Below are positions 21,484-35,852 of a stretch of 41,885 nucleotides of DNA, piece after piece. Both the position numbers and the translations under genes were made by a program. Positions within the stretch are counted from its first letter, which is position 1. Every line of letters begins with the position of its first letter. Location: assembly GCA_022705845.1 (NCBI GenBank), contig JAKJDQ010000002.1:1-41885 (forward strand), written 5' to 3'. The notes beneath the pieces were generated by a model that saw nothing but the letters and a program-made list of their open reading frames with translations, was not told the DNA's origin and searched no databases. This stretch comes from Patescibacteria group bacterium (GTDB lineage Bacteria > Patescibacteriota > Patescibacteriia > Patescibacteriales > Patescibacteriaceae).

Positions 21484-21558
21484 TCCCGGGTAGCGCAGCG
21501 GTAGCGCAGTTGGCTGTTAACCAATTGGTCGTGGGTTCGAATCCCACCCCGGGAGCCA
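21484..21558 (+). tRNA. tRNA-Asn (GTT), with CCA at the 3' end
   Basis: Acceptor TCCCGGG/CCCGGGA. The D arm is GCGC..GGTA..GCGC. The anticodon stem GTTGG/CCAAT encloses CTGTTAA, giving GTT for AAC and AAU. T arm GTGGGTTCGAATCCCAC. Discriminator G at 21555, followed by CCA at 21556-21558. The other two tRNAs here lack CCA, so this CCA may come from the element that recombined into the 3' end. It is the left attachment site of the island. Confidence 0.95.
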
Positions 21559-21651
21559 GCGTGTACAAACAGAGGTTGAAACCTCCGTTTGTGTTTTATT
21601 TATCGGCGTTTCTGTTGGTTCTAACCCTTGATATTCAGCCTCTAATGCAGG
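21553..21651 (+). repeat. Island left boundary: 99-bp direct repeat, copy A (att-like)
   Basis: Starts GAGCCAGC at the last bases of tRNA-Asn and ends at TCTAATGCAGG. It matches 29083-29181 at 89 of 99 positions by eye. It encodes, on the minus strand, a recombinase C-terminal tail, and contains a stem-loop at 21565-21592. Confidence 0.85.
21565..21592 (+). terminator. Stem-loop after tRNA-Asn, probable terminator
   Basis: ACAAACAGAGGT pairs with ACCTCCGTTTGT around TGAA, with a single A-C mismatch, followed by GTTTT. It sits 7 bases past the tRNA CCA. The copy at 29095-29122 keeps the stem despite base changes. Confidence 0.7.
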
Positions 21652-21916
21652 GTAGTTATTTTTGATTGGAACGAGCCATTCATTTGGTTCAATATAGAGC
21701 TTTCCGTCTTTAATCATCGGCGTTTTTCCGAGAGCTAGTAAAATTTCTTTTTTCAATTCTAACCCTGCTTTGCCCATATTATTGGCCTTTATAAAAGCAG
21801 TTCGTGTATAGGTAGCAAAAGTAAAAGTTTTCTCAGTCAGCTCAAGCCATTTTTCAGCTCTTGTTTCGGTGAGCTGGTGTATCAATAATCCAATCTAATC
21901 TGTGTTTGGCAGTCTT

Positions 21917-21942
21917 GATGGCCTTTTATAGCCATCTTTTTT
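21917..21942 (+). terminator. Strong rho-independent terminator
   Basis: GATGGC and GCCATC form a perfect 6-bp stem around CTTTTATA, followed by TTTTTT (21937-21942). It would stop rightward read-through from rpoD/tRNA-Asn before the restriction operon. Confidence 0.75.
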
Positions 21943-22096
21943 GTTTACCTGTTCACTATTCTTTGCCAATATTTAGTTAATGAGACCTATTTATGCCCCC
22001 CATTCATTCTTTGGATACTTGTGAATATTATCGTATGTAGTTGGTTATATCTCATCAATGATTATTATAAGAGTATCATGACAAAATTCGCCACTT

Positions 22097-22125
22097 TTGA
22101 CAACGAATTTCATAAGCGATAAAAT
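22097..22125 (+). promoter_or_regulatory. Promoter of the restriction-modification operon
   Basis: TTGACA (22097-22102), 17-base spacer, TAAAAT (22120-22125). Predicted start near 22132, leaving about a 27-base leader before the HTH gene at 22159. The surrounding 21943-22158 shows no gene. Confidence 0.75.
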
Positions 22126-22158
22126 GTAAGCATAACCCTATAAACAGATACATCTTTT

Positions 22159-22359
22159 ATGAATACTAAGATAGATAAACTTTTTACCATTGAGGAAACC
22201 GCCAAAATTTTGAGAGTTAGTAGTCGTTCAGTGAATCGATATATTGAGTCAGGCAAGCTTAAAGCATCAAAGATTGGCAGTTGGCGAATTACTGAGCTTG
22301 ATTTGCAAAAATTTTTAGAAGATACTAGTAATTTGGTCGTTAAAAATAAAAAGAAATAA
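22159..22359 (+). CDS. Excisionase/MerR-type HTH protein
   Basis: The 66-aa protein has one winged-HTH domain of the excisionase (HTH_17) type: LFTIEETAKILRVSSRSVNRYIESGKLKASKIG, then WRITELDLQKFLED. It is the first gene of the restriction operon, 6 bases before the methylase. It could be the excision factor of the island or a controller of the restriction genes, like C-proteins, though it is not of the usual C-protein fold. The sequence alone does not separate these. Confidence 0.85.
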   Translation: MNTKIDKLFTIEETAKILRVSSRSVNRYIESGKLKASKIGSWRITELDLQKFLEDTSNLVVKNKKK

Positions 22360-22365
22360 TTTTTT

Positions 22366-23322
22366 ATGACCACAAAACAAGCCATACAAACAATACAGAG
22401 AACGTTTGACATTAATCACATATTTGCATATAGAGTTTTTTCGTTAGCTGATAAATCAAATTTGCTTGACGATTCAGCTCGAATTATTGCTGAGAAGCCG
22501 AAGCCATTCCTTAAGTGGGTTGGTGGTAAACGTCAATTGTTAGAGCAGTTTAGACTGACAAAACTTTATCCACCGGAATTCTTTGATCCAACAAGAAACA
22601 GTTATTTTGAACCATTTGTTGGTGGTGGTGCTGTTTTTTTTGACTTACTCCCAGAGAGAGGATATTTATCAGACCTAAATAGAGAGTTGGTTATTACTTA
22701 TAATGTTATCAAAAATAATGTTGATGAGTTGATTCGTTCTCTTAAAGAACACAAGAACGATAAAGAATATTTTTTGAAAGTGAGATCTCAAGACACGAAT
22801 AAATTAAGCGACATCGCAATCGCTTCAAGATTTATTTATCTGAATCGAACTTGCTTCAATGGCCTTTATCGTGTTAACAGTCAAGGCAAATTTAATGTGC
22901 CATTTGGTAAATATTCAAATCCACAAATTTGTGACGAACAAAACCTTAGGAATGTTTCAAATGCTTTAAGCGGTGTGGAAATCAAACATCAGGACTACAA
23001 AGAGGTTCTTAAAAAGGCAAAGAAAGGAGATTATATATATTTTGACCCGCCATATTATCCGGTTAGCAAAACCGCTTCATTTACATCTTATACTTCTGAG
23101 TCCTTCTTAGATAAGGAACAGATTGAATTAAGAGATGTTTTTGTTGAATTACATAATAGGGGATGTTTCGTTATGCTGTCTAATTCTGATACACCATTTA
23201 TTAATAAAATTTACTCCGGTATAAATGGCGTACGAATCACCAAAGTTTATGCTGGCCGAGCCATAAACTCTAAAGGGTCGGGTCGTGGTAAGATAACGGA
23301 GGTTTTAGTCACTAACTATTGA
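22366..23322 (+). CDS. dpnM: Dam/DpnM-type adenine-N6 DNA methyltransferase (D12 class)
   Basis: The protein methylates adenine, by family most likely in GATC. The 318-aa product has the D12-class motifs in order: FLKWVGGKRQLL (48-59), FEPFVGGGAVFFDL (81-94, AdoMet binding), LNRTCFNGLYRVN and the catalytic DPPY at 227-230. There is an extra N-terminal stretch of about 45 residues compared with typical Dam (MTTKQAIQTIQRTFDINHIF). Six bases after the HTH gene and four before the endonuclease. The stop is TGA, rare in this window. GATC specificity is inferred from the DpnII-type neighbour. GATC sites are common in the window, so the host must be methylated if the enzyme cuts. Confidence 0.93.
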   Translation: MTTKQAIQTIQRTFDINHIFAYRVFSLADKSNLLDDSARIIAEKPKPFLKWVGGKRQLLEQFRLTKLYPPEFFDPTRNSYFEPFVGGGAVFFDLLPERGYLSDLNRELVITYNVIKNNVDELIRSLKEHKNDKEYFLKVRSQDTNKLSDIAIASRFIYLNRTCFNGLYRVNSQGKFNVPFGKYSNPQICDEQNLRNVSNALSGVEIKHQDYKEVLKKAKKGDYIYFDPPYYPVSKTASFTSYTSESFLDKEQIELRDVFVELHNRGCFVMLSNSDTPFINKIYSGINGVRITKVYAGRAINSKGSGRGKITEVLVTNY

Positions 23323-23326
23323 AAAT

Positions 23327-24184
23327 ATGAAAAAAGATTTTAATACATTAATAACTACATTCAAGAGCTCAATTAAAACTTGGGATTATTTTGTAAATTG
23401 GAAAAAAGTTTTTGCGAATAGCTCGGATTTAGAAATTGCTTTAAACAAACTAAATTATCTACTTGGTAAAGAAAATTTAAAGGAAGAATTCAAAAAGTTA
23501 TACAAAACCAACCCCGATATTGTTGAGGCCTTGCCTGTGCTATTGGCTGTTAGAGAAAATACACTGGAAGTTTTTGATAAGGTTACCAAAAATTCTGAGT
23601 TTTTTGATTTTTCTGGGAGAGACCAAAACCCAGACAAATATTTTAAGTTTTTAGAAAAATCCGGACTTATTCAATTATTTAAAAAAGACAAAATCAAAAA
23701 TTTGGTTGATTATGTTATAGGTGTTGAAGTTGGTTTAGACAGTAATGGTCGAAAGAATCGTGGAGGAACTTTGATGGAGGAGATTGTCGGTGCTTTTATA
23801 TCGGAATTTTGTAAAAGCAATGGTTATGAGTGTTTAGCGCAAGCCCGAGCTACGAGCATTAAAAGTAAATGGGGTGTTGATATTAAAGTAGACAAATCGG
23901 AAAGAAGTTTTGATTTTGCTGTTTATAATACAGAGAATAAAAAGATAAAACTTTTTGAAACTAATTTTTATAATGGTGGAGGGTCAAAACTAAAAGCGGT
24001 TTGCGGTGAGTTTAAGAGTCTTTATGATGAGCTAAAAAAACAAAATATTGATTTTATTTGGATTACAGATGGTTTAGGGTGGCATACTGCCCAGAGGCCA
24101 CTGGAAGAAACATATAATCATAATAAGTATATCTTTAATCTAAACATGCTTGAAGCCGGCATATTGAACGAGCTTAAATGGTAA
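23327..24184 (+). CDS. dpnB: DpnII/MboI-type type II restriction endonuclease
   Basis: The 285-aa protein is close to the length of R.DpnII, which cuts unmethylated GATC. Family landmarks are visible: RKNRGGTLMEEIVGAFI (142-158), the catalytic-region segment SFDFAVYN (Asp 196) followed by KIKLFETNFYNGGGSKL (206-222), and IDFIWITDGLGW near the C-terminus. It lies between two methylases with 4- and 6-base gaps, so all are co-transcribed. The endonuclease call is strong from motif and context; GATC cutting is by family. Confidence 0.92.
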   Translation: MKKDFNTLITTFKSSIKTWDYFVNWKKVFANSSDLEIALNKLNYLLGKENLKEEFKKLYKTNPDIVEALPVLLAVRENTLEVFDKVTKNSEFFDFSGRDQNPDKYFKFLEKSGLIQLFKKDKIKNLVDYVIGVEVGLDSNGRKNRGGTLMEEIVGAFISEFCKSNGYECLAQARATSIKSKWGVDIKVDKSERSFDFAVYNTENKKIKLFETNFYNGGGSKLKAVCGEFKSLYDELKKQNIDFIWITDGLGWHTAQRPLEETYNHNKYIFNLNMLEAGILNELKW

Positions 24185-24190
24185 AATATT

Positions 24191-24955
24191 ATGGTGCAGA
24201 AAAAAGCTACAGAACTCAAATTACACCCAGACGAGTTTGAGCTTGAATGTACGACAGTATGGGCTTTCCGCCGTAGAGGTAATTGGGCAACACACACTTC
24301 TAATTGGAGGGGTAATTGGTCGCCAGAGGTTGTTCGTAATCTTATCCTCCGATACTCAAAGGAGGGTGATATTTTACTTGATTCAATGATCGGCGGAGGC
24401 ACTACTGCTATTGAAGCTAAAATTTTAAACAGAAATATTATTTATTCTGATGTGAATCAGCAAGCATTGGACCGCACAAAGAAAGCTCTTGAATTTGAGG
24501 TGAATAATAAGGCTTGGCAAAGGGGTTTTAAGTGGGACTCCCGCCATTTAGAAAAAATAAAAGATAACTCCATTGATTTTGTCCTCACGCATCCTCCTTA
24601 TGTAGATATTATTAAATACAGCAAAGGGAAACTTGTAGACGATCTTTCAAATATTCATGATATTGAGGCTTTCTGTAATGAAATGGAGAAAGTAGCCAAA
24701 GAATTTTATCGGGTATTAAAACCGGGTAAATTTTGTGCAATTTTGATGGGAGATACAAGAAGAAATAAGATGTATCAACCCCTTGCTTATAAAGTTATGG
24801 ACCGATTTTTGAAATCCGGGCTACTTCTCAAGGAAGATATTATAAAGTGTCAGTTTAATTGTAAGGCTACTAGTTTTTGGGTCGAAAAATCTAAAGCATC
24901 CAATTTCTTGCTAATAATGCACGAACATCTTTTTGTGTTTCAGAAAGTGCAATAA
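24191..24955 (+). CDS. Second amino-methyltransferase of the restriction operon
   Basis: The 254-aa protein has an AdoMet motif (LLDSMIGGGTTAIEA, about 62-76) before a catalytic motif VLTHPPYVDIIKYS (about 131-144). The THPPY replaces D/NPPY. The N-terminal NWATHTSNWRGNWSPEVVRNLIL looks like motif X. The order X-I-IV is that of gamma-class N6-adenine or N4-cytosine methyltransferases. Classical DpnII systems also have two methylases (DpnM and DpnA), and this is in the DpnA role by position, though its motif order should be checked against DpnA (beta class). It starts 6 bases after the endonuclease and ends 14 before the 1166-aa gene. Confidence 0.82.
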   Translation: MVQKKATELKLHPDEFELECTTVWAFRRRGNWATHTSNWRGNWSPEVVRNLILRYSKEGDILLDSMIGGGTTAIEAKILNRNIIYSDVNQQALDRTKKALEFEVNNKAWQRGFKWDSRHLEKIKDNSIDFVLTHPPYVDIIKYSKGKLVDDLSNIHDIEAFCNEMEKVAKEFYRVLKPGKFCAILMGDTRRNKMYQPLAYKVMDRFLKSGLLLKEDIIKCQFNCKATSFWVEKSKASNFLLIMHEHLFVFQKVQ

Positions 24956-24969
24956 GGATTATATTAATT

Positions 24970-27900
24970 ATGGAAAATGATGGCTTAAAAATCGAAATTG
25001 ATAAACCGTTTAAGCTCGAACCAAATCAAGAGCGGATTTGTAATTATTTAGATCACTTAAACGAAAAAGGGGGAATATGCTCTGATGGAGTTTTGCCATC
25101 GGATTTGATAAGGGGTGCACTGGCGGCTGTTCGTAATGCCGAATCAAATCCGGATTGGATGGCACAATCAGCTCATTCATACCGTGAAGTCTTTTATTGG
25201 TTAGGAGGAACTAAAAATGGAGCTGTAAACAATTCCCAAACGAAGAAAGAAAAAATCGGAAGTGTTTTACAGGTTTTACATGAGCAGAAAAAGGCTTATG
25301 AAATTGCCAACATCCTATATAAAACACATTTAGCATTTACAAAGATTAGCCATCATTTTGCAGAAAAGAAAAGCAGAGAAGATACAATAAAAATTTTTAA
25401 AGAGCTTAATATAAATGTTGATGAGAAAACTTTTCCCAGTGCTCGTGATTATAATAATCTGATCTTGGTGTTTGAAAATACATTAAAAGCATCGTCTCCC
25501 GATCCGCTAAAAATCCACGAAAAAATTGATTCGTTTATAAAAGAAAATAATAATGATGCCTCTTACCTTCGTTTGTTATTCTCTTTAACTTATGACGCTA
25601 AGAGATATTTTTTTTCTCAAGCTAACGATGCTTACATTGATTGGCTATGGCAGAATAATTTTCTTGATGAAATCAAAAACAAATCTGAAGATCTTACATG
25701 CATATCTTATAACTTGCCTGAACTTGATTATTTAACTCGGATGGCTGAAAAGAATCCGACAAAAGTTACTGACATTATGCTTAACAAGAGCACGGCCACC
25801 AGAGAAGACAATTTAAATCCAGAAGTCGTCAATAGATTTTTGCGGATTATAACAGCCCTACCTGCGGAACAGATTAAGTTAATAACTTCCAAAATTCGTG
25901 ACGAGAGATGGGTCTATGCTATGCGAGCTTTCCGTAAGAGTGGATATGAGTTTGATAGGATTGTAAAGAAATTGGTTGAAGCAAAAGAAAGTGATGCGAT
26001 TTTGGAATTAGCCCAAGCTATTCTTATTGTTAAGAGTAAGGCCGAATTATCAGAGAATAAAACTGGCTTTAGCATGGATGACCCATTCTATGTCAGTGAT
26101 CTTGATGCGTCAGGAATTTTTGAGGCTTTAGCTAACATATCAGATTCTTACAAGGAAAAAGCTCTCCAGATTACTACTGGCATATTAGCCGAGATAGTTA
26201 AGTTGGCAGAACCGGATGAAGCAGGGGTGTTTGATTATACTGATTTATTTACCCTATATGATGTCGATATGTTTACGCTTGAGATCGAAGATAAACGAAG
26301 CTATTCTTATCAGAAAGATATAATAAACCTTACGGCAACAATTAAAAAGTTAATTGAGTCAACTTTTGGTAAAAAATGCACCAATATCGATGAGGCAAGA
26401 AGAATGTTTGGATATATAGATAGCATACCCTCGTGTCATTCAGTGTGGCGATTGAGGCTTTTTGCATTAGCACAGTGTCCGGAGACATTTAAAAATGAAC
26501 TTAGAGACGCTTTCTTCAAACTTTTTTCAGTTGCAAATTATTACGAAATTGAGGGTGGAACGGAATATAAAAAAGCTCTCAAGATTGCCTTTCCTTTTCT
26601 GTCTGACACTGACCGACATGAGTACGTAAAAAATGTTATTTCTTATTTCTTTCAAAAAGCACAAAAAGATCCAGATAAGGCTGGGATAAAACGTACTGGG
26701 CGGGAGATTCTATCATCTATACCCCAAGATCTACTGACTGAGAATGAAAAAGTTGATTGCGAAAAATTTTTTGGTAATAGACCAGATCCAAAATACGAAC
26801 CAGAACCACTCGTAAAAATGGGAAGAGCTGGATTTGTTAACCACAGATCACCCGTAAATCTGGACGATTTTACAATTGATCAAATAATTGAGAATTTAAA
26901 ATCAAATTGGACACCAGAGAAACTCAATGAACAGTTTAAAAATGATGACTTCTTAAATCCTAGAGATGTCGAGGGTCTTGGCGATGCCATCAAGGAAAAT
27001 GTAAAAAAGAGAACTAATGAATATCTCAATAAAATTAATTTATTTTTTGAGCGAAATTTGATCCATTCTAGCTATGTATATTCTCTTCTTAGGGGTATTG
27101 AAGAAATGCTTCGCAATAAACAAACCCTAGGTATCTCTCAAATTACACAGTTACTTGAATTTTTTAAAAAGATTGAAGATAGTGGAAAGGATAAGGCATT
27201 TAGACGAAAGGCAGATAACTCATGGCTGGCCGATTGGATAGACGTTCATAAAGTAGCAACTGATATTTTACTTTTTATTTTGGAAGACAAAGAAAAACGT
27301 GAAGAGATATTCAAGCAACATCGAGAATTACTAAAAAATCTGATCTCCTATCTTTTTACTATTAAAGATAGCCCGACAAAAGAATACGAAAAACCCGAAT
27401 ATGGTGAACTTTATCATATAGCGATTAATTCTGTTCGTGGTCGTGCCTATGAAGCATTTGTTGTATTTACTGAAGGTGATGGTAAAAATTTGGCCGATGA
27501 TGTAAAAACATTATATAAACAGGTATTGAAGGACGACTCTTTGGCAGTCCGTTTTGTTGTTGGACGTTATTTAGCTTCTTTCTATTTTCGTGATAAGGAT
27601 TTTATTACAGGACTTTTGCCAGAGATATTTCCGAAAGACGAAATCGACAAAAAAGATATTTACCTTGCCAGCTGGGAAGGTTATCTTTCTAATACTCTTT
27701 ACGACCAACTCTTTGTTGCTTTAAGTGGGTACTATGAACACGCAATAAACCTAGATCCTCAAATTTATACAGAAAGAAAATATTCAAAAGATTTAGATGA
27801 GTCTTTGGCGATTCATATCGCACTTGCATTTGCACATCTTGGGTTAGAATTTGACAATCAATTATTTATTAAATTTTGGAGCACTCCGAACATAAAAAGG

Positions 27901-28470
27901 CATCAAGAGTTTGTATCTTTTATTGGTAGAAGTTGTTTAACTAGAGACCAGGCTGGAGATAAATGGTTAGAAGATAATAAGGTTAGCAAAGACAAACTAA
28001 TTAAGTTTTGGGGCTGGGCGTTAGAAAATATATCAGAGCCTGAAGTTTTGGCCGGGTTTGGCTTTTGGATAAATCCAGACAAGGAAGTCTTAGACGAGCA
28101 AGTTGTAATTGAAAAAATCGCCTTAACTCTTAAAAAATCAAATGGCAATCTAGATTGGGATTATGGATTGATGAAACGCTTGCCGATATTCGCTAATAAA
28201 AATGGCCACCGGACCCTGGAAATAATTTCTAATTTTTTACTAGACTCAAATGGCAATCTAAATCCGAATCGTCGAGTACCTATGTTTAGTTTAGATAATG
28301 AAATCAAACAATCTCTTGAAGTTATTTATAATAATGGCGATGATTCTGAGAAGCAAAAAGTTACATATCTAATTAATTCATTGATTGATAAGGGCAGTAA
28401 TATGTTTTGGTGTTTGGAGGATGTGATTAATGGACATCAAGCAGAAAATCAAGAACAAAGGAGATGCTAA
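24970..28470 (+). CDS. 1166-aa helical protein of unknown function, last gene of the restriction operon
   Basis: The largest gene in the window. It is almost entirely alpha-helical in appearance, cytoplasmic, with no signal peptide or membrane helix. I see no Walker A motif, nuclease motif or methylase motif. The N-terminal region (about 40-80: LIRGALAAVRNAESNPDWMA, then HSYREVFYWLGG) looks like a separate module. The C-terminal half has repeated helical pairs, for example INSVRGRAYEAFVVF, DDSLAVRFVVGRYLASFYF and a YLSNTLYDQLF segment. These resemble, from memory only, the helical scaffold ends of large phage-defence proteins. It starts 14 bases after the methylase with no promoter between, so it is part of the defence operon. 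Candidate defence effector, sensor or restriction partner; not proven. Confidence 0.85.
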   Translation: MENDGLKIEIDKPFKLEPNQERICNYLDHLNEKGGICSDGVLPSDLIRGALAAVRNAESNPDWMAQSAHSYREVFYWLGGTKNGAVNNSQTKKEKIGSVLQVLHEQKKAYEIANILYKTHLAFTKISHHFAEKKSREDTIKIFKELNINVDEKTFPSARDYNNLILVFENTLKASSPDPLKIHEKIDSFIKENNNDASYLRLLFSLTYDAKRYFFSQANDAYIDWLWQNNFLDEIKNKSEDLTCISYNLPELDYLTRMAEKNPTKVTDIMLNKSTATREDNLNPEVVNRFLRIITALPAEQIKLITSKIRDERWVYAMRAFRKSGYEFDRIVKKLVEAKESDAILELAQAILIVKSKAELSENKTGFSMDDPFYVSDLDASGIFEALANISDSYKEKALQITTGILAEIVKLAEPDEAGVFDYTDLFTLYDVDMFTLEIEDKRSYSYQKDIINLTATIKKLIESTFGKKCTNIDEARRMFGYIDSIPSCHSVWRLRLFALAQCPETFKNELRDAFFKLFSVANYYEIEGGTEYKKALKIAFPFLSDTDRHEYVKNVISYFFQKAQKDPDKAGIKRTGREILSSIPQDLLTENEKVDCEKFFGNRPDPKYEPEPLVKMGRAGFVNHRSPVNLDDFTIDQIIENLKSNWTPEKLNEQFKNDDFLNPRDVEGLGDAIKENVKKRTNEYLNKINLFFERNLIHSSYVYSLLRGIEEMLRNKQTLGISQITQLLEFFKKIEDSGKDKAFRRKADNSWLADWIDVHKVATDILLFILEDKEKREEIFKQHRELLKNLISYLFTIKDSPTKEYEKPEYGELYHIAINSVRGRAYEAFVVFTEGDGKNLADDVKTLYKQVLKDDSLAVRFVVGRYLASFYFRDKDFITGLLPEIFPKDEIDKKDIYLASWEGYLSNTLYDQLFVALSGYYEHAINLDPQIYTERKYSKDLDESLAIHIALAFAHLGLEFDNQLFIKFWSTPNIKRHQEFVSFIGRSCLTRDQAGDKWLEDNKVSKDKLIKFWGWALENISEPEVLAGFGFWINPDKEVLDEQVVIEKIALTLKKSNGNLDWDYGLMKRLPIFANKNGHRTLEIISNFLLDSNGNLNPNRRVPMFSLDNEIKQSLEVIYNNGDDSEKQKVTYLINSLIDKGSNMFWCLEDVINGHQAENQEQRRC

Positions 28471-28485
28471 TGCGGTATAAAACTA

Positions 28486-28609
28486 GTTATTTAAAATCTC
28501 AAGCCCTTGCATTTCCTTTTGAGCCTGTTCCATGTCCTCGAACATCTTGAGATAGATTGCCCGAGTTTTCGATTATCCTCAGCAAACCTGATATCGTCAT
28601 CGTCCATAA
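28486..28609 (-). pseudogene. Short frameshifted ORF inside the island
   Basis: On the minus strand, ATG at 28609 starts MDDDDIRFAEDNRKL. The natural continuation lies in the next frame, RAIYLKMFEDMEQAQKEMQG then LEILN and a stop near 28486. Both halves look like real protein (acidic start, amphipathic helix), so a one-base shift near 28565 probably broke a 40-aa gene. It overlaps the end of the ORF at 28597-28833. Unrecognised. Confidence 0.35.
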
Positions 28610-28833
28610 AGCTGGTCAGCGAAATCTAAGCACCGGCGAAAATTCGGATATGATTCTTTATTGCTTGTTTTTATCTTGGCTTTAGGTTCCGGAAGTGAGA
28701 AAAGCGGATTAAATGATCCATGTCGATGTGGCATTCTTATGTTTTCAGCAGTTCTGAGGACCGTCCCAATGACATCTTCTCCATAGTAAGCAACAACATA
28801 CGCTTGCCCGGGAAACAAGCCCAGCGGAGTCAT
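28597..28833 (-). CDS. Small ORF inside the island, unrecognised
   Basis: A 78-codon minus-strand frame, starting MTPLGLFPGQAYVVAYYGED and ending DFADQLYGR. The composition is protein-like (FPGQAYVVAYYGEDVIGTV, ESYPNFRRCLDFADQL), and its stop overlaps the next short frame by 13 bases, as in an operon. The opposite strand has a longer frame (28720-29109) with less protein-like text. It may be a remnant of the element's own genes, or a fragment with its start lost. No function is proposed. Confidence 0.35.
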   Translation of the reverse strand: MTPLGLFPGQAYVVAYYGEDVIGTVLRTAENIRMPHRHGSFNPLFSLPEPKAKIKTSNKESYPNFRRCLDFADQLYGR

Positions 28834-29082
28834 ATTTGTTTAACTTTTGGAAAATTAAGCAAATCGTCCCAAACCTTTAAAATTTGTCAAACCGGTGGCT
28901 ATGGTCGCAAGGGGTCTCAATATCTACTTCAGACACAAAGCTCGCCACAGGGGCAACTAGCTGGTAATTTTTTGGTTATAAATTCTCTTACTTGGCCAAG
29001 AGTTCTTTTGTTTGATCCAAAACCACCGTCGGATATTTATGTTTTTGACATAGTCCAAATGTCGAAAGTCGTTAAGAAGGGC

Positions 29083-29181
29083 GAGCCAGCATGTACGAAC
29101 AGGGGTTGAAGCCTCTGTTCGTGTTTTATTTATTGGCATTTTTGTTGGTTCTAACCCTTGATATTTAGCCTCTAATGCAGG
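29083..29181 (+). repeat. Island right boundary: 99-bp direct repeat, copy B (att-like)
   Basis: Matches 21553-21651 at 89 of 99 positions, from GAGCCAGC to TCTAATGCAGG. On the minus strand it encodes a second recombinase C-terminal tail, ending the same way in PINKTRTEASTPVRTC before leaving the repeat. The hairpin at 29095-29122 keeps pairing through compensatory changes. No tRNA lies beside this copy. Confidence 0.85.
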
Positions 29182-29228: not shown

Positions 29229-29466
29229 TTAACCTAGCCATATGGTTCGCCCAGCGGTTTTTTCTTCTAAAAAAATTCCAACTATGCTCCAAGACCCGTC
29301 AAAATAATCCTGGCAGAATATGGTTATTTCTGTTAAGATTGGATAAGGGTTTTTTTTATTACTTTTATGGACAAAAACTATATAATGATAAAGTGCGCCA
29401 GCGGTATAGTAAAGATTAGAGTCAGCTAGCGTACTTAAATTATTGTATCTAAGTGTATGAACTTTC
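29229..29466 (-). pseudogene. Start-less minus-strand frame, possible gene remnant
   Basis: The minus strand is open from just after a TAG near 29469 to TAA at 29229-29231. It reads protein-like text such as NLYYTAGALYHYIVFVHKSN, ITIFCQDYFDGSWSIVGIFL and EEKTAGRTIWLG. There is no ATG, and the first bases overlap the next plus-strand gene. I do not recognise it. Given the decay in this region it may be the tail of a lost gene; a chance open frame cannot be excluded. Confidence 0.3.
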
Positions 29467-30494
29467 TAAATTTAACCAAATTACATATTGGTGATAAAGT
29501 GGCGATTGTCTCGCCTTCTTTTGCCGCTCCAGGAAAATGGCCTCATTTATATAATCTAGCCCTTCAGAGGGTCCGAGACGTTTTCGGCTTAGAGCCCGTA
29601 GAGTTTTCTGCCACATCAAAGATAGGAGCTTCCGCGGAAGAAAGATCAAAAGATTTGATTGACAGTTTTAATTGAAGTGACATAAAAGCAGTAATTGCCT
29701 CACTTGGGGGAGACGATCAAATAACATACATTAAGGATCTACCCCCAGAGCCATTCATAAATAATCCAAAACCATTCTTCGGTTTTAGTGATAATACACA
29801 TTTTGCAAATTTTCTTTGGTTAAACGGGATTCCATCTTTTTATGGAGCCTCTCTGTTTACTCAATTTGGTATGCAAAAAAGAATGGATGAATATACTGTT
29901 AAATATTTAAAATATGCGCTATTTAATAGTGGCGAATTTGAGCTAAGACCAAGCAATATTTACAACGATATTGGATTGCCCTGGGATAATGTTTCCACGT
30001 TGGATCAAGCGCGGATATATGAAAAAAATGAGGGGTGGTATTGGAATGGCGATAATGATACAGAAGGGGTCACCTGGGGTGGGTGCCTGGAGTCAATTGA
30101 TGAATTGCTTAGACACGGAGTATCAATACCCACACTTGATGAATTTAAAAATATAGTTCTTTTTACCGAGACCTCTGAAGAAATCCCATCAAGCGATTAT
30201 GTGGCAAGAGTTTACCGAGCGCTTGGAGAGCGGGGCATTCTTAAAAAGGTGAGAGGCGTCCTTGTTGGTCGACCAAAAGCCTGGGAATTTGATAAACAAA
30301 AATCATCAGAAGAAAAGGCGAAATATAAAAAAGAACAACGAGATACAACTTTAGCAATTATAAGAAAATACAATCCTACTGTTCCAGTTATTCAAAATAT
30401 AGATTTTGGGCATACTGACCCTCAGATATGTCTTCCATATGGCGGGAAGGTCAGAATAGTTTCTTCCGAGAAGAGAATTTTTGCTGAGTTTTAG
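29457..30494 (+). pseudogene. LD-carboxypeptidase/MccF-like (S66) gene with an in-frame TGA
   Basis: S66 peptidases cut L,D bonds in peptidoglycan peptides or destroy microcin C-like nucleotide antibiotics. The frame is 346 codons, full length, interrupted only by TGA at 29673-29675 (codon 73). Upstream it reads IGDKVAIVSPSFAAPGKWPH; downstream KAVIASLGGDDQI follows directly. All catalytic residues lie after the stop: Ser 111 in GFSDNT, Glu 212 in WGGCLES and His 319 in FGHTDP. The rest is uncorrupted, so the lesion is recent, a sequencing error or a recoded codon. The text GDDQIT and the segment around the Glu favour the MccF-like branch. Confidence 0.85.
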
Positions 30495-30894
30495 AAAATG
30501 TCCAAGCCCATATATCTAATGTTCATGCCAAAAGTAAGAATTAATTTAGTTTATTTCATCCGTTATGTGACTAACCACCTAGAGCTAGAGTTAAAGAAAT
30601 TGCTAGATAGCCATTTTCATGGGTCAGTGGTGGCCCTATTTAAACAAAAATTGTGGCTGGAAGATTGACTAGATCAGAAGATCCAGTAGACCATGTTTAA
30701 TGGCGGTCATATTGAAGAAGGCGAAATTTTGTGAGAGACTCTTGTCAGAGAAATCGGCCGAAGAATTTTAGGCCGCCGAGTGGATGAATTTAGCTGAAGT
30801 CCGAGAGCAGGCAATTAATATTGAAATGCTTTCGGCGTTAGATTTTATAGAAAAAACTATTTCTGACCAACTTTATTTTAAATTGATTTATAAT
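30495..30894 (+). pseudogene. Wrecked NUDIX gene
   Basis: The stretch has no intact ORF but holds pieces of a NUDIX hydrolase in more than one frame. FNGGHIEEGEIL and ETLVREIGRR (interrupted by TGA) match the NUDIX box start around 30700-30760. Past another frame change, MNLAEVREQAINIEMLSALD with FIEKTISDQL (30784-30870) is a typical NUDIX C-terminal end. Several TGA/TAG stops and at least one shift are present, so it is dead. The 172-codon frame that appears to start at 30784 is this tail running into the intact NUDIX gene. Confidence 0.6.
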
Positions 30895-31302
30895 ATGTCC
30901 AAAATAATTATTGCGGCCGGGCCGGTTATTGTGGAGGGTGATAAAGTTTTGTTGGTTAAACATGGTAAGGATAATTTTTGGAAATTCTGTGGCGGCAAGG
31001 CCGAAGACCATGAAACCGACTTGAAGGCTGTTGCCATTAGGGAAGCCAAAGAAGAAATGGGTCTGCAGATAGAGATATCTGCGGATGCTCCTTATTTCTT
31101 TTATACTGAAAAAGAAGTTGATGGAGTTAATGTTAGTGTTATATTAGTTCATTTTTTGGCCCGCAGAAATGGTGAAATAATTCCCGGTCAAGACATTGGG
31201 GATTGGCGCTGGCTTGACATCAGTGATTTAGATGAAAACAATTTAGCTCCGAATATTAAGCCGACTTTAATGTATTTTGGTTTTTATTCAAATAAAGAGT
31301 AA
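30895..31302 (+). CDS. NUDIX hydrolase
   Basis: NUDIX enzymes split nucleoside diphosphates linked to another group, for example damaged dNTPs. From ATG 30895 (MSKIIIAAGPVIVEGDKVLL) the protein is 135 aa, the usual size. The NUDIX box is GGKAEDHETDLKAVAIREAK followed by EEMGL, the normal pattern but with one extra residue between the first Glu and REAKEE. An in-frame ATG at 30784 would add 37 residues that belong to the broken neighbour; I reject it. It is the only gene between 29200 and 32000 that looks intact. Substrate unknown. Confidence 0.85.
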   Translation: MSKIIIAAGPVIVEGDKVLLVKHGKDNFWKFCGGKAEDHETDLKAVAIREAKEEMGLQIEISADAPYFFYTEKEVDGVNVSVILVHFLARRNGEIIPGQDIGDWRWLDISDLDENNLAPNIKPTLMYFGFYSNKE

Positions 31303-31313
31303 TAGTATATTAT

Positions 31314-31987
31314 ATGCCTTTAATTGTCGGACATCGAGGAGCGGCTGGTTATGCGCCGGAAAATACGCTGGCCTCATTTAAGTTGGCTATTGACATCGGC
31401 TGCGACCGAACCGAATTGGATGTTCGGCTTACCAAGGATAAGCAATTGGTCGTTATTCATGATAAAGAAGTATCCCGATTGACTGATGGCACTGGACTGG
31501 TTAGTGATTAATAGAACTGCGGAGACTAAAGTGTGTTGGTGGCGGGTACATACCAACCCTGCAAGATGTTGTCGATATTTGTCGGGGCCGGATTAGTTTG
31601 CAGATTGAATTAAAAGCTATTGGTACGCCCGAATTAGTTAGCGAATTAATTGCCCGCAATGGTGTTGAAGATCAGGTGGTTATCACTTCTTTTCAACCCA
31701 GCTTATTGGCGGAAATAAAGGAGCTCAATCCTAAACTGCCAGTTGGTTTGTTGTTTTGGACTGATGAAACAATGGCTGATATTTGGCATTTGGCTGAAAA
31801 CATCCCTCTGGATTTTTTGGCACCATATGCTGAAATAATAACTGAAGAATTTGTTAAACAGGGACATAGTTTAGGCAAGACAGTCTATGCTTATCAGGTT
31901 AATAATAAAGAGTTGGGCGATAAGTTAACAGTAATGGGAGTTGACGAGATTGGCACTGACTTCCCTAAATTATTTAGCATTACTTAA
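31314..31987 (+). pseudogene. Glycerophosphodiester phosphodiesterase, frameshifted
   Basis: GDPD enzymes hydrolyse glycerophosphodiesters from lipid turnover. The N-terminal part has GHRGAAGYAPENTLASF, ELDVRLTKDKQLVVIHD and DGTG, with the catalytic His-Arg, Glu, Asp and His. It hits stops at 31509-31514. The sequence resumes two frames over as ELRRLKCVGGGYIPTLQDVV, then SLQIELKAIGTPELV, and runs to a normal C-terminal end at 31987 (VDEIGTDFPKL). A small net deletion near 31510 explains both parts. The later piece has no own start. Nonfunctional unless the shift is an error. Confidence 0.8.
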
Positions 31988-32223
31988 TGAATCACGAGCT
32001 GTCTTTTTGGAATCTGGTAGTCCAGTCAGTTTCTGATTATCTTAACTGTCGCTGTTTTCCAAGAAAGATAAAAATACTATAAAACAGTGACCATGAGGCT
32101 TGGTTAGGTACTTGTCCAAAATAAGGCGAACTGATACAATCTAAGATAGAAATTGTGAAGACATTTCTACATCTCTATTGGTTAGTATAACTGAGTTAGA
32201 GAAGATTTTTTTATTAAACTTAC

Positions 32224-33963
32224 ATGACAAAGCTCTTAAAATATCTTACTCCATATATCTGGCCCCTGCTTTTGCTAGCTCTTTTAATATATTGTCAGGC
32301 TTCGGCCACCTTGGCTTTGCCGGACTATATGGCCAGAATCATAAACCAGGGCATACTCGGTCAAAATACCGGCGTAATTTTTCATAACGGCTTAATTATG
32401 ATTCTCATTGCTATTGGCGGTGGTTTAGCCACGGTGGGAGTGGGTTATTTATCCTCCCGTATTGGTACGGGATTTGCTCGAGATTTGCGCACCATGATTT
32501 TTACCAAGATAGAAGATTTTTCTCTAGTTGAGTTTAATAAATTTTCCACTGCTTCGCTTATTACTCGCAGTACTAATGATGTCCAGCAGATCCAGATGGT
32601 TTTTATAATGATTTGCCGTATTGCTTTACTGGCTCCTTTAATGGGGATACTGTCGACTTTTAAGGCTTATCATTTAGCGCCGTCAATGACCTGGATTATG
32701 GCGGTAGCAGTAGTGGCTTTAATTGCCATAGTAATAGTGCTTTTCCAGATAGTTGTTCCTAAGTTTACTAAACTGCAAAAATTAGTAGATAAATTAAATT
32801 TAGTTACCCGAGAAATTCTTACTGGCTTAAGGGTTATTAAGGCTTTTGGCAAAGAAGACTACGAAAGTCAGAAATTTGATAAAGTTAATCAAGATTTAAC
32901 ACGGCTTCATCTTTTGGTTAACCGCTTAATGGTTATTATTCAACCAGTCATGATGCTTATTATGAATTTTATGATGATTGCTATTGTTTGGCTGGGGGCG
33001 CATCATATTGGGGCTGGTGATTTGCAGGTTGGCAGTATGTTGGCTTTCTTACAATATTCCATGCAGGCAGTATCGGCCTTTTTAATGATTTCTATTGTTT
33101 TTATTAGTCTGCCTCGTGCTGCTGTTTCGGCTAATAGGATTGCTGAAGTACTGGAAACTGAAATTCAAATTAAAGATCCAACTAATCCAGTGAGGGCTCA
33201 TAGACGGGGTGGCAAGGTAGAATTTAAAAATGTTACCTTTACTTATCCGGGAGCCGCTGAGCCTGTTCTTCATAATATTTCTTTTGTGGCTTTGCCTGGC
33301 GAAACAACAGCTTTTGTCGGCAGTACGGGCAGCGGTAAATCAACTATTATTAACCTTATTCCTCGTTTTTATGAGGTGACCGAGGGACAAGTTTTAGTTG
33401 ATGATGTAGATGTGCGGGCAATGAGACAAAAAGATTTGCGGGCGCGAATTGGTTATGTATCGCAAAAAGCTATGCTTTTTTCTGGTACTATTAGAGATAA
33501 TATCACTTACGGCAATCCTAATGCTACCCAGGAAGAGATTTTTCGGGCTGCCGCTACGGCCCAAGCTTTAGAATTTATTAAAGAATTAGAGGGAAAATTC
33601 GATAGCTCGATTGCTCAGGCTGGCACTAATTTTTCTGGCGGTCAGAAACAACGTTTAGCTATTGCCCGGGCTTTAGCCAAGAACCCTGAACTTTATCTTT
33701 TTGATGACAGTTTTTCGGCCCTGGATTTTCAGACCGATAAAGCCTTAAGGAATGCATTAAAAGAAGAAGCTCAAGGCAAGACTGTTTTAATTGTTACCCA
33801 GCGTATTGCGACTATTATGAATGCTGACAAAATTGTAGTAATAGACAAAGGAGAGATAGTGGGGCAGGGGACTCATGAAACTTTACTCAAGACCTGTAAG
33901 GTTTATCAAGAAATTGCGGCTTCACAGCTTGCCCCGGAAGAATTAGCTCGAGTTCTGAGATAA
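32224..33963 (+). CDS. ABC exporter half-transporter with degenerate ATP site
   Basis: A 579-aa membrane-ATPase fusion: six predicted helices (about 1-300) and an ATP-binding domain. Walker A GSTGSGKST (366-374), Q-loop YVSQKAM and signature FSGGQKQRLAIARAL (Ser 471) are present. The Walker B catalytic Glu is Asp (LFDD, Asp 495), and the switch His is Gln (VTQRI, Gln 526). That is the signature of the inactive-site subunit of heterodimeric exporters of the TM287/288 or BmrCD type. It lies 5 bases before the partner. Substrate is unknown; drugs, lipids or peptides are possible by family. Confidence 0.9.
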   Translation: MTKLLKYLTPYIWPLLLLALLIYCQASATLALPDYMARIINQGILGQNTGVIFHNGLIMILIAIGGGLATVGVGYLSSRIGTGFARDLRTMIFTKIEDFSLVEFNKFSTASLITRSTNDVQQIQMVFIMICRIALLAPLMGILSTFKAYHLAPSMTWIMAVAVVALIAIVIVLFQIVVPKFTKLQKLVDKLNLVTREILTGLRVIKAFGKEDYESQKFDKVNQDLTRLHLLVNRLMVIIQPVMMLIMNFMMIAIVWLGAHHIGAGDLQVGSMLAFLQYSMQAVSAFLMISIVFISLPRAAVSANRIAEVLETEIQIKDPTNPVRAHRRGGKVEFKNVTFTYPGAAEPVLHNISFVALPGETTAFVGSTGSGKSTIINLIPRFYEVTEGQVLVDDVDVRAMRQKDLRARIGYVSQKAMLFSGTIRDNITYGNPNATQEEIFRAAATAQALEFIKELEGKFDSSIAQAGTNFSGGQKQRLAIARALAKNPELYLFDDSFSALDFQTDKALRNALKEEAQGKTVLIVTQRIATIMNADKIVVIDKGEIVGQGTHETLLKTCKVYQEIAASQLAPEELARVLR

Positions 33964-33968
33964 TTATT

Positions 33969-35852
33969 ATGTCTAAAGATAAAGAAAAATTAAATAATCC
34001 TACTACTTTTACTTTACCTCCCAGAGGACCACGGATCGGTGGTTTAGGTTTAGGTCGTCGGCATGGCGGAGGAATGCGGGGTCTGGTGGAAAAACCCAAG
34101 GATTTTAAGGGTACCATGCGCAAGCTTATAAAATATCTAAAGCCTTACTACGTCTCCATTATTGTGGTTCTAATTTTAGCCATGGCCAGTACTGTTTTTA
34201 CTATTATTAGCCCTAAGATATTGGGCGATATTACTAATGAAATTGTTGTTGGTATTAAGAATATAACCCAGGGGGGTATTGATTTTTCCGCTATTCTTCA
34301 CTTAATAACAATTTTGGTTGGTCTTTATTTGATTGGCGCCTTATGTAGCTATCTCCAGGGTTGGATTATGACGGGGATTACCCAAAAAGTTACTTATAAT
34401 CTAAGAAAAAGTATTGCTTTAAAAATTAATCGGCTGCCGTTACGCTATTTTGATACCCAAAGCCATGGAGATATCTTAAGCCGGGTAACCAATGATGTTG
34501 ATACCGTTAGCCATAGTTTTAATCAGAGTTTAACGCAAGTGGTGACCGCTGTGACTACTATTGTCGGTATTCTCATAATGATGATTATTCTTAGCTGGCA
34601 GTTGACCTTAGTCGCCGTGATTATTTTGCCGCTTGGCTTTTTATTGGCGCGATTTATTATTAAAAAATCACAAAAGTATTTTTTTAATCATCAAGTATCA
34701 TTAGGGGAAATTAATGGTCATGTAGAAGAAATGTTTTCTGGTCATACTATTGTTAAAGCTTTTAATGGGGAGCAGAAATCCATCAGCACTTTTCGTAAAA
34801 TTAATAATGAACTTTATAATAACGCCTGGAAGTCTCAATTTTTTTCTGGTCTTCTACATCCCATAATGAATTTTTTGGATAATGCTGGATTTGTTGCCGT
34901 GTCGGTGCTCGGCGGATGGTTCGCTATTCGCGGCAAAATGACTATTGGTAGTATTCAGGCTTTTATTCAATACCTTAACCAATTTAATCGTCCTATTATT
35001 CAGACGGCTAGCATTGCTAATGTTTTTCAATCTACGGCCGCAGCCGCCGAAAGAGTCTTTGAATTTTTAGAAGAAGAGGAGGAACTTCCAGATCCGGCTC
35101 AACCCAAAGAGCTTAAGACAGTAAAAGGTGCTGTTGATTTTGTGAATGTGGTGTTTGGCTATACTCCCGAAAAGATAATTATTAATAATTTCAGTGCCAG
35201 TATTAAACCAGGGCAAAAAATAGCGATTGTCGGACCAACTGGTGCCGGCAAAACTACTATGGTTAATTTGTTAATGCGTTTTTATGAGGTTGATAGTGGT
35301 GCTATTAAAATTGACGGTGTAGATATTAGAGATTTAAGGAGGTCAGATTTAAGAAAACTTTTTGGGATGGTACTTCAGGATACTTGGCTTTTTAGCGGCA
35401 CGATTGAAGAAAATATTGCTTATGGAAAAGACAATGTTTCTCACGAAGAAGTAGTTAAAGCGGCGCAAGCAGCTTATGCTGACCACTTTATTCATACTTT
35501 GCCTGGAGATTACCAGATGGAGATTAGCGAGGAAGCAGATAACATTTCTCAAGGCGAGAAACAACTTTTAACTATAGCGCGGGCTATTTTAGCTAATGCC
35601 CCCATGCTTATTTTAGATGAAGCTACCAGCTCAGTGGATACCCGTACTGAAGCTTTGATTCAGGCGGCCATGGATAAAATGATGGAAGGCCGGACTAGCT
35701 TTATTATTGCTCATCGGCTGTCAACTATTCGCAATGCTGATTTAATTTTAGTGATGCGTGATGGCCACATTGTGGAGCAGGGGACACATAAACAATTGTT
35801 GGCCCAGAATGGATTTTATGCTTCTTTGTATAATAGTCAATTTGTGGTGTAG
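33969..35852 (+). CDS. ABC exporter half-transporter with the active ATP site
   Basis: The 627-aa partner has a Gly/Arg-rich cytoplasmic N-terminal extension (RGPRIGGLGLGRRHGGG), then six membrane helices and an ATPase domain. Walker A GPTGAGKTT (422-430), Walker B LILDEATS with Glu 551 and switch His 582 (IAHRLST) are all canonical. The signature motif is altered (ISQGE, Ser 527) and would complete the partner's degenerate site. So the dimer should have one working and one impaired ATP site, as in the TM287/TM288 family. The gene is 5 bases after its partner and ends in TAG. Confidence 0.91.
   Translation: MSKDKEKLNNPTTFTLPPRGPRIGGLGLGRRHGGGMRGLVEKPKDFKGTMRKLIKYLKPYYVSIIVVLILAMASTVFTIISPKILGDITNEIVVGIKNITQGGIDFSAILHLITILVGLYLIGALCSYLQGWIMTGITQKVTYNLRKSIALKINRLPLRYFDTQSHGDILSRVTNDVDTVSHSFNQSLTQVVTAVTTIVGILIMMIILSWQLTLVAVIILPLGFLLARFIIKKSQKYFFNHQVSLGEINGHVEEMFSGHTIVKAFNGEQKSISTFRKINNELYNNAWKSQFFSGLLHPIMNFLDNAGFVAVSVLGGWFAIRGKMTIGSIQAFIQYLNQFNRPIIQTASIANVFQSTAAAAERVFEFLEEEEELPDPAQPKELKTVKGAVDFVNVVFGYTPEKIIINNFSASIKPGQKIAIVGPTGAGKTTMVNLLMRFYEVDSGAIKIDGVDIRDLRRSDLRKLFGMVLQDTWLFSGTIEENIAYGKDNVSHEEVVKAAQAAYADHFIHTLPGDYQMEISEEADNISQGEKQLLTIARAILANAPMLILDEATSSVDTRTEALIQAAMDKMMEGRTSFIIAHRLSTIRNADLILVMRDGHIVEQGTHKQLLAQNGFYASLYNSQFVV

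Follow-up and report, generated by a model that had tools for sequence, protein, structure and literature searches.

A probable recent nonsense mutation in an accessory MccF-type S66 peptidase gene of a Patescibacteria genome

The window (the whole stretch of 41,885 nucleotides that was analysed) carries an MccF-type S66 peptidase gene whose reading frame is interrupted by one in-frame TGA, and the reading that we regard as very probable is that a recent nonsense mutation silences an accessory gene that had probably come in by horizontal transfer before this lineage and that of the sister genome parted. On this reading the broken gene needs no change of genetic code. One TGA within the frame of a Patescibacteria gene does not amount to evidence for UGA-glycine recoding; that question is quickly decided by looking at the genome of a sister, at the frameshift site of prfB and at the tRNAs. 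The case stands as a small example of accessory-gene turnover in a reduced genome; a search for literature combining Patescibacteria pseudogenes, nonsense mutation and genome reduction returned none.

The interrupted frame and its family

The features of the gene are as follows.

29457..30494, + strand: MccF-type S66 peptidase gene, interrupted, a pseudogene as assembled (frame, domains, intact 97% identical copy in the sister genome G001)
29673..29675, + strand: in-frame TGA, codon 73 (CGC, Arg, in the sister; Asn, Asp or Ser in 28 others)
29457..29675, + strand: stub of 72 residues if UGA terminates, without a catalytic residue (ORF, 72 aa)
29871..30494, + strand: second open frame, starting from codon 139, the next in-frame start, past Ser111 (ORF, 207 aa)

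Frame 1 of 29457-30494 runs for 345 codons to a final TAG, and the TGA at codon 73 is its single internal stop. With the frame read through (TGA as G), Pfam Peptidase_S66 (PF02016) matches residues 15-130 (E 1.5e-17, 64.3 bits against a cut-off of 25) and Peptidase_S66C (PF17676) matches residues 203-334 (E 4.2e-21, 76.2 bits against a cut-off of 23.7). Judged from the sequence, chance does not produce two neighbouring domains of one family in their proper order within a single frame of such length. An alignment of 12 sequences, the window's own copy included, shows Ser111, Asp112, Glu238, Glu241 and His319 to be invariant; we take Ser111, Glu238 and His319 to be the Ser-Glu-His catalytic triad. 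The frame, the Pfam matches and the alignment thus bear out what the earlier note had described, a full-length S66 peptidase with one TGA at codon 73 and its Ser, Glu and His kept. It is the only gene of this genome that matches PF02016.

A PDB search with a profile of 12 relatives, again including the window's copy, matched 27 distinct sequences at E ≤1e-4, and the best matches were chains of the MccC/MccF family, with E-values of 1.3e-84 for 5f9m and 8.3e-35 for MccF 3tla. The MccF-type S66 chains (5f9m, 5f1y, 4e94 and 3tla, named MccC family protein or MccF) have both S66 domains and the residues corresponding to Ser111, Glu238 and His319, as in the window, whose frame differs from theirs in being broken by the TGA at codon 73. 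LdcA, the LD-carboxypeptidase or muramoyltetrapeptide carboxypeptidase, belongs to the same superfamily. However, the LD-carboxypeptidase family NF008424 of NCBIfam gave a weak match (E 4.6e-11, 42.3 bits), far under its cut-off of 378, and the LD-carboxypeptidase chains in the PDB search scored much below the MccC/MccF chains (5z01, E 1.7e-10). By these profile scores the window's peptidase is nearer to MccF than to LD-carboxypeptidase and is assigned to the MccF type. The intact protein was presumably a serine peptidase of the MccF kind, with peptidyl-adenylates or cell-wall peptides as its predicted substrates.

The sister copy and the origin of the stop

The sister genome G001, of the same genus and taken as Candidatus Falkowbacteria UBA1359, has a stop-free copy of the peptidase gene with 97% protein identity, in which codon 73 is CGC (Arg). 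Sister sequence matches the ABC transporter region directly downstream of the peptidase (32139-35616, 97% DNA identity) as well as 21552-22032 upstream, in the same neighbour order, and therefore the gene lies at the same place in both genomes. In 28 further homologues the residue in the codon-73 column is Asn (14), Asp (12) or Ser (2). The set consisted of 30 loci, namely the sister (L053), 27 compared loci and two that were left out with the site uncovered (L081 and L082); adding L006 to the 27 gives the 28 further homologues, and L007-L014 lay outside the comparison. Glycine, which the earlier note had thought to suit the local text, occurs in this column in none of the 29 homologues, the sister's Arg included, nor do any of the 29 have a TGA at the site. 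One of the 28, the S66 homologue in a Saccharibacteria record (L078:3502-4518), carries an in-frame stop at another position, a TAA at codon 86.

The gene is sparsely distributed. At E ≤1e-30 it is matched in 13 of 379 genomes of the phylum (its own and the sister included), and among the 15 matched places in those 13 genomes an internal stop is found in one only, the TGA of the window's copy. In genome G413 the S66 homologue is present as two adjacent pieces (G413:C6:213-1225), along with an unbroken copy on contig C15. Among 61 relatives, nine (the window's own genome included) match at E ≤0.001; within the genus, G001 has a match and the one remaining genome, G002, has none; the family contributes ten more genomes, and of these only G011 matches, weakly and in part. 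This patchy distribution suggests that the gene was gained horizontally before the split from the sister.

The window and sister copies differ in 20 codons, comprising codon 73, 11 silent and 8 replacement differences. Over 223 silent and 812 replacement sites this corresponds to about 0.049 and 0.010, respectively, a ratio of about 0.2 that is drawn from few events. Since this ratio is low, constraint has probably acted on the gene during most of the period after the two lineages parted, and the stop at codon 73 is probably recent. The two nearest outgroups (L054 and L055) were compared at the 8 replacement sites: they agree with the sister at 183, 231 and 315 and with the window only at 149, and the remaining four sites match neither, which would be too few for relaxed selection to show. 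No second lesion was found in the peptidase frame across 29457-30494.

The TGA is two bases apart from the sister's CGC. The simplest path would start from a common ancestor with an intact, horizontally gained gene in which codon 73 was Arg CGA; one C-to-T transition in the window's lineage would then have produced TGA, and the CGC of the sister would be a silent third-base difference from the putative ancestral codon. RF2 would terminate translation at codon 73 and leave a stub of 72 residues that lacks the catalytic ones. Past it, the first in-frame ATG, GTG or TTG is codon 139 (29871), which lies beyond Ser111, so that neither fragment would be an active enzyme, and the MccF-type peptidase activity is predicted to be lost unless the UGA is read through. 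Two points can be held against a nonsense mutation: a path of one step presupposes a CGA ancestor that has not been seen, and the lack of a second lesion together with the constrained substitutions is what a single base-calling error or readthrough would also give.

The first of these two alternatives, an assembly or sequencing error or else a minority strain variant in the metagenome-assembled contig, with the gene intact in most of the population, seems to us unlikely. The genome is a draft of 49 contigs, and the undamaged and constrained remainder of the frame would fit such an origin. However, a single miscall would not account for the two-base difference from the sister unless the true codon were CGA or another one-step neighbour, and the genes next to the peptidase are decayed too.

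We consider it less likely still that the stop is leaky, in the sense that near-cognate decoding of UGA yields a little full-length peptidase and the gene is still under selection. If true, this would account for a frame that is otherwise undamaged and constrained, the substitution ratio and the lack of a further lesion both being in its favour. An A follows the UGA in the window, and this context favours UGA readthrough in E. coli. UGA readthrough by forms of tRNA-Trp is documented in E. coli in PMC13092985. Nevertheless the constraint can be older than the mutation, and with a sense codon in the sister and in all 28 other homologues there is no conserved recoding signal. A recent nonsense mutation is thus the reading that we retain.

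UGA as a stop codon in this genome

The gene for RF2, prfB, is present with 417.5 bits against a cut-off of 370 (L002, G000:C6:12934-13956, minus strand; the sister's prfB is L124). The 5′ part of the gene is in a different frame, with GGGAGATGT CTT TGA C at its end, and the frameshift site (GGGAG...CTT TGA C) is common to the window's genome and the sister. The sequence CTT TGA C is the classical programmed frameshift site, at which RF2 senses UGA. An internal TAG in prfB, at first sight an oddity, was set aside as it sits in the out-of-frame stretch directly before the programmed frameshift.

With ARAGORN, none of the 38 tRNAs found in the window's genome had the anticodon UCA. These 38 are without a Trp or a Tyr tRNA, the draft (570,569 bases, 49 contigs) missing some, and the sister was therefore checked too: none of its 46 tRNAs (5 contigs, listed as 99% complete) has the anticodon UCA, and its Trp tRNA has CCA. 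The rpoB gene is open over 1182 residues with no internal stop. Among 31 selected ORFs of the window, the stop codon is TAA for 23, TAG for 6 and TGA for 2, and the methylase gene at 22366-23322, which ends in TGA, has its last residue at position 271 of the 272 positions of the profile, with a gap of four bases before the next gene. Given prfB and its frameshift site, the lack of a UCA tRNA in both sets, the open rpoB and the TGA-ended methylase, UGA is a working stop in this organism.

A code in which UGA means glycine is described for Gracilibacteria and Absconditabacteria in PMC8629427, which also reads two Gracilibacteria genomes that have RF2 but no tRNA-UCA as support for a UGA stop. 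The likeness to our case lies in an in-frame TGA in an otherwise open Patescibacteria gene, whereas the window's genome has RF2, no tRNA-UCA found, homologues that are not Gly and one TGA only. That UGA is read as glycine, here or in the donor of the gene, therefore has next to no probability and we reject it: such codes exist and TGA is one base from GGA, but the gene was already in place in the sister with Arg, the column is free of Gly, the TGA is confined to the window's copy among the 15 homologous places in 13 of 379 phylum genomes, and prfB with its UGA site is present while tRNA-UCA was found in neither genome.

The earlier note had doubted local recoding and had proposed checks on prfB and tRNA-UCA, and here its doubt was justified, the former being present with the UGA frameshift site and the latter absent from both tRNA sets. 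Between the two sources that it offered for the TGA, a fresh mutation agrees with the sense codon of the sister, whereas transfer from a UGA-glycine organism does not hold up against the sister's Arg at the same place and homologues with neither TGA nor Gly there. No TGA occurs anywhere in the matched frame of the other homologues of the phylum (15 places in 13 of 379 genomes, the window's copy included), and the homologues compared point to no such donor: all 29 have a sense codon, and neither Gracilibacteria nor Absconditabacteria appears in the 30 record titles, several of which are no finer than 'bacterium'.

The surroundings of the gene

The features around the peptidase gene are the following.

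21484-21558: tRNA-Asn gene
30498..30815, + strand: multi-stop relic ORF (three TGA, one TAG), its sister counterpart degenerate too (frame, sister comparison)
30898..31302, + strand: gene for a Nudix hydrolase, apparently intact (nothing corresponding in the 10 kb of the sister compared)
31314..31987, + strand: frameshifted GDPD gene, with the N-terminal part at 31314-31511 and the C-terminal part at about 31550-31987

The two GDPD parts lie in different frames and cover positions 1-59 and 128-243 of a profile of 244. With a multi-stop relic and a frameshifted GDPD gene beside it, the neighbourhood of the peptidase, as far as its reading frames tell, is decaying too. The relic at 30498-30815, in which a Nudix-like motif was seen by eye, was considered as a second recoded gene and discarded, as it reaches no family at cut-off and its sister copy is degenerate with indels; translated with TGA as G and TAG as Q, its best Pfam match is VapB-like (E 0.016, 15.7 bits against 27) and NCBIfam gives none. 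The stretch with the Nudix and GDPD genes (30895-32138) has no blastn match within the 10 kb of the sister compared.

Upstream of the peptidase, a direct repeat of 99 bases occurs at 21553-21651, beside the tRNA-Asn gene, and at 29083-29181, the two copies agreeing at 89 of 99 bases; in the 10 kb of the sister compared the repeat occurs once. Restriction genes sit between the tRNA-Asn gene and the second repeat copy, and the whole of 21484-29181 resembles an island that has integrated at a tRNA gene, although no integrase was identified in it. The surroundings of the peptidase suggest a stretch where genes have been both gained and lost. The restriction-modification genes are of the DpnII type, with an HTH gene at 22159, a D12 methylase at 22366, a DpnII endonuclease at 23327 and a second methylase at 24191. 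Beside them, 24970-28470 encodes a protein of 1166 residues with no PADLOC match, for which the best Pfam match is PPP5 (E 0.049, under the cut-off).
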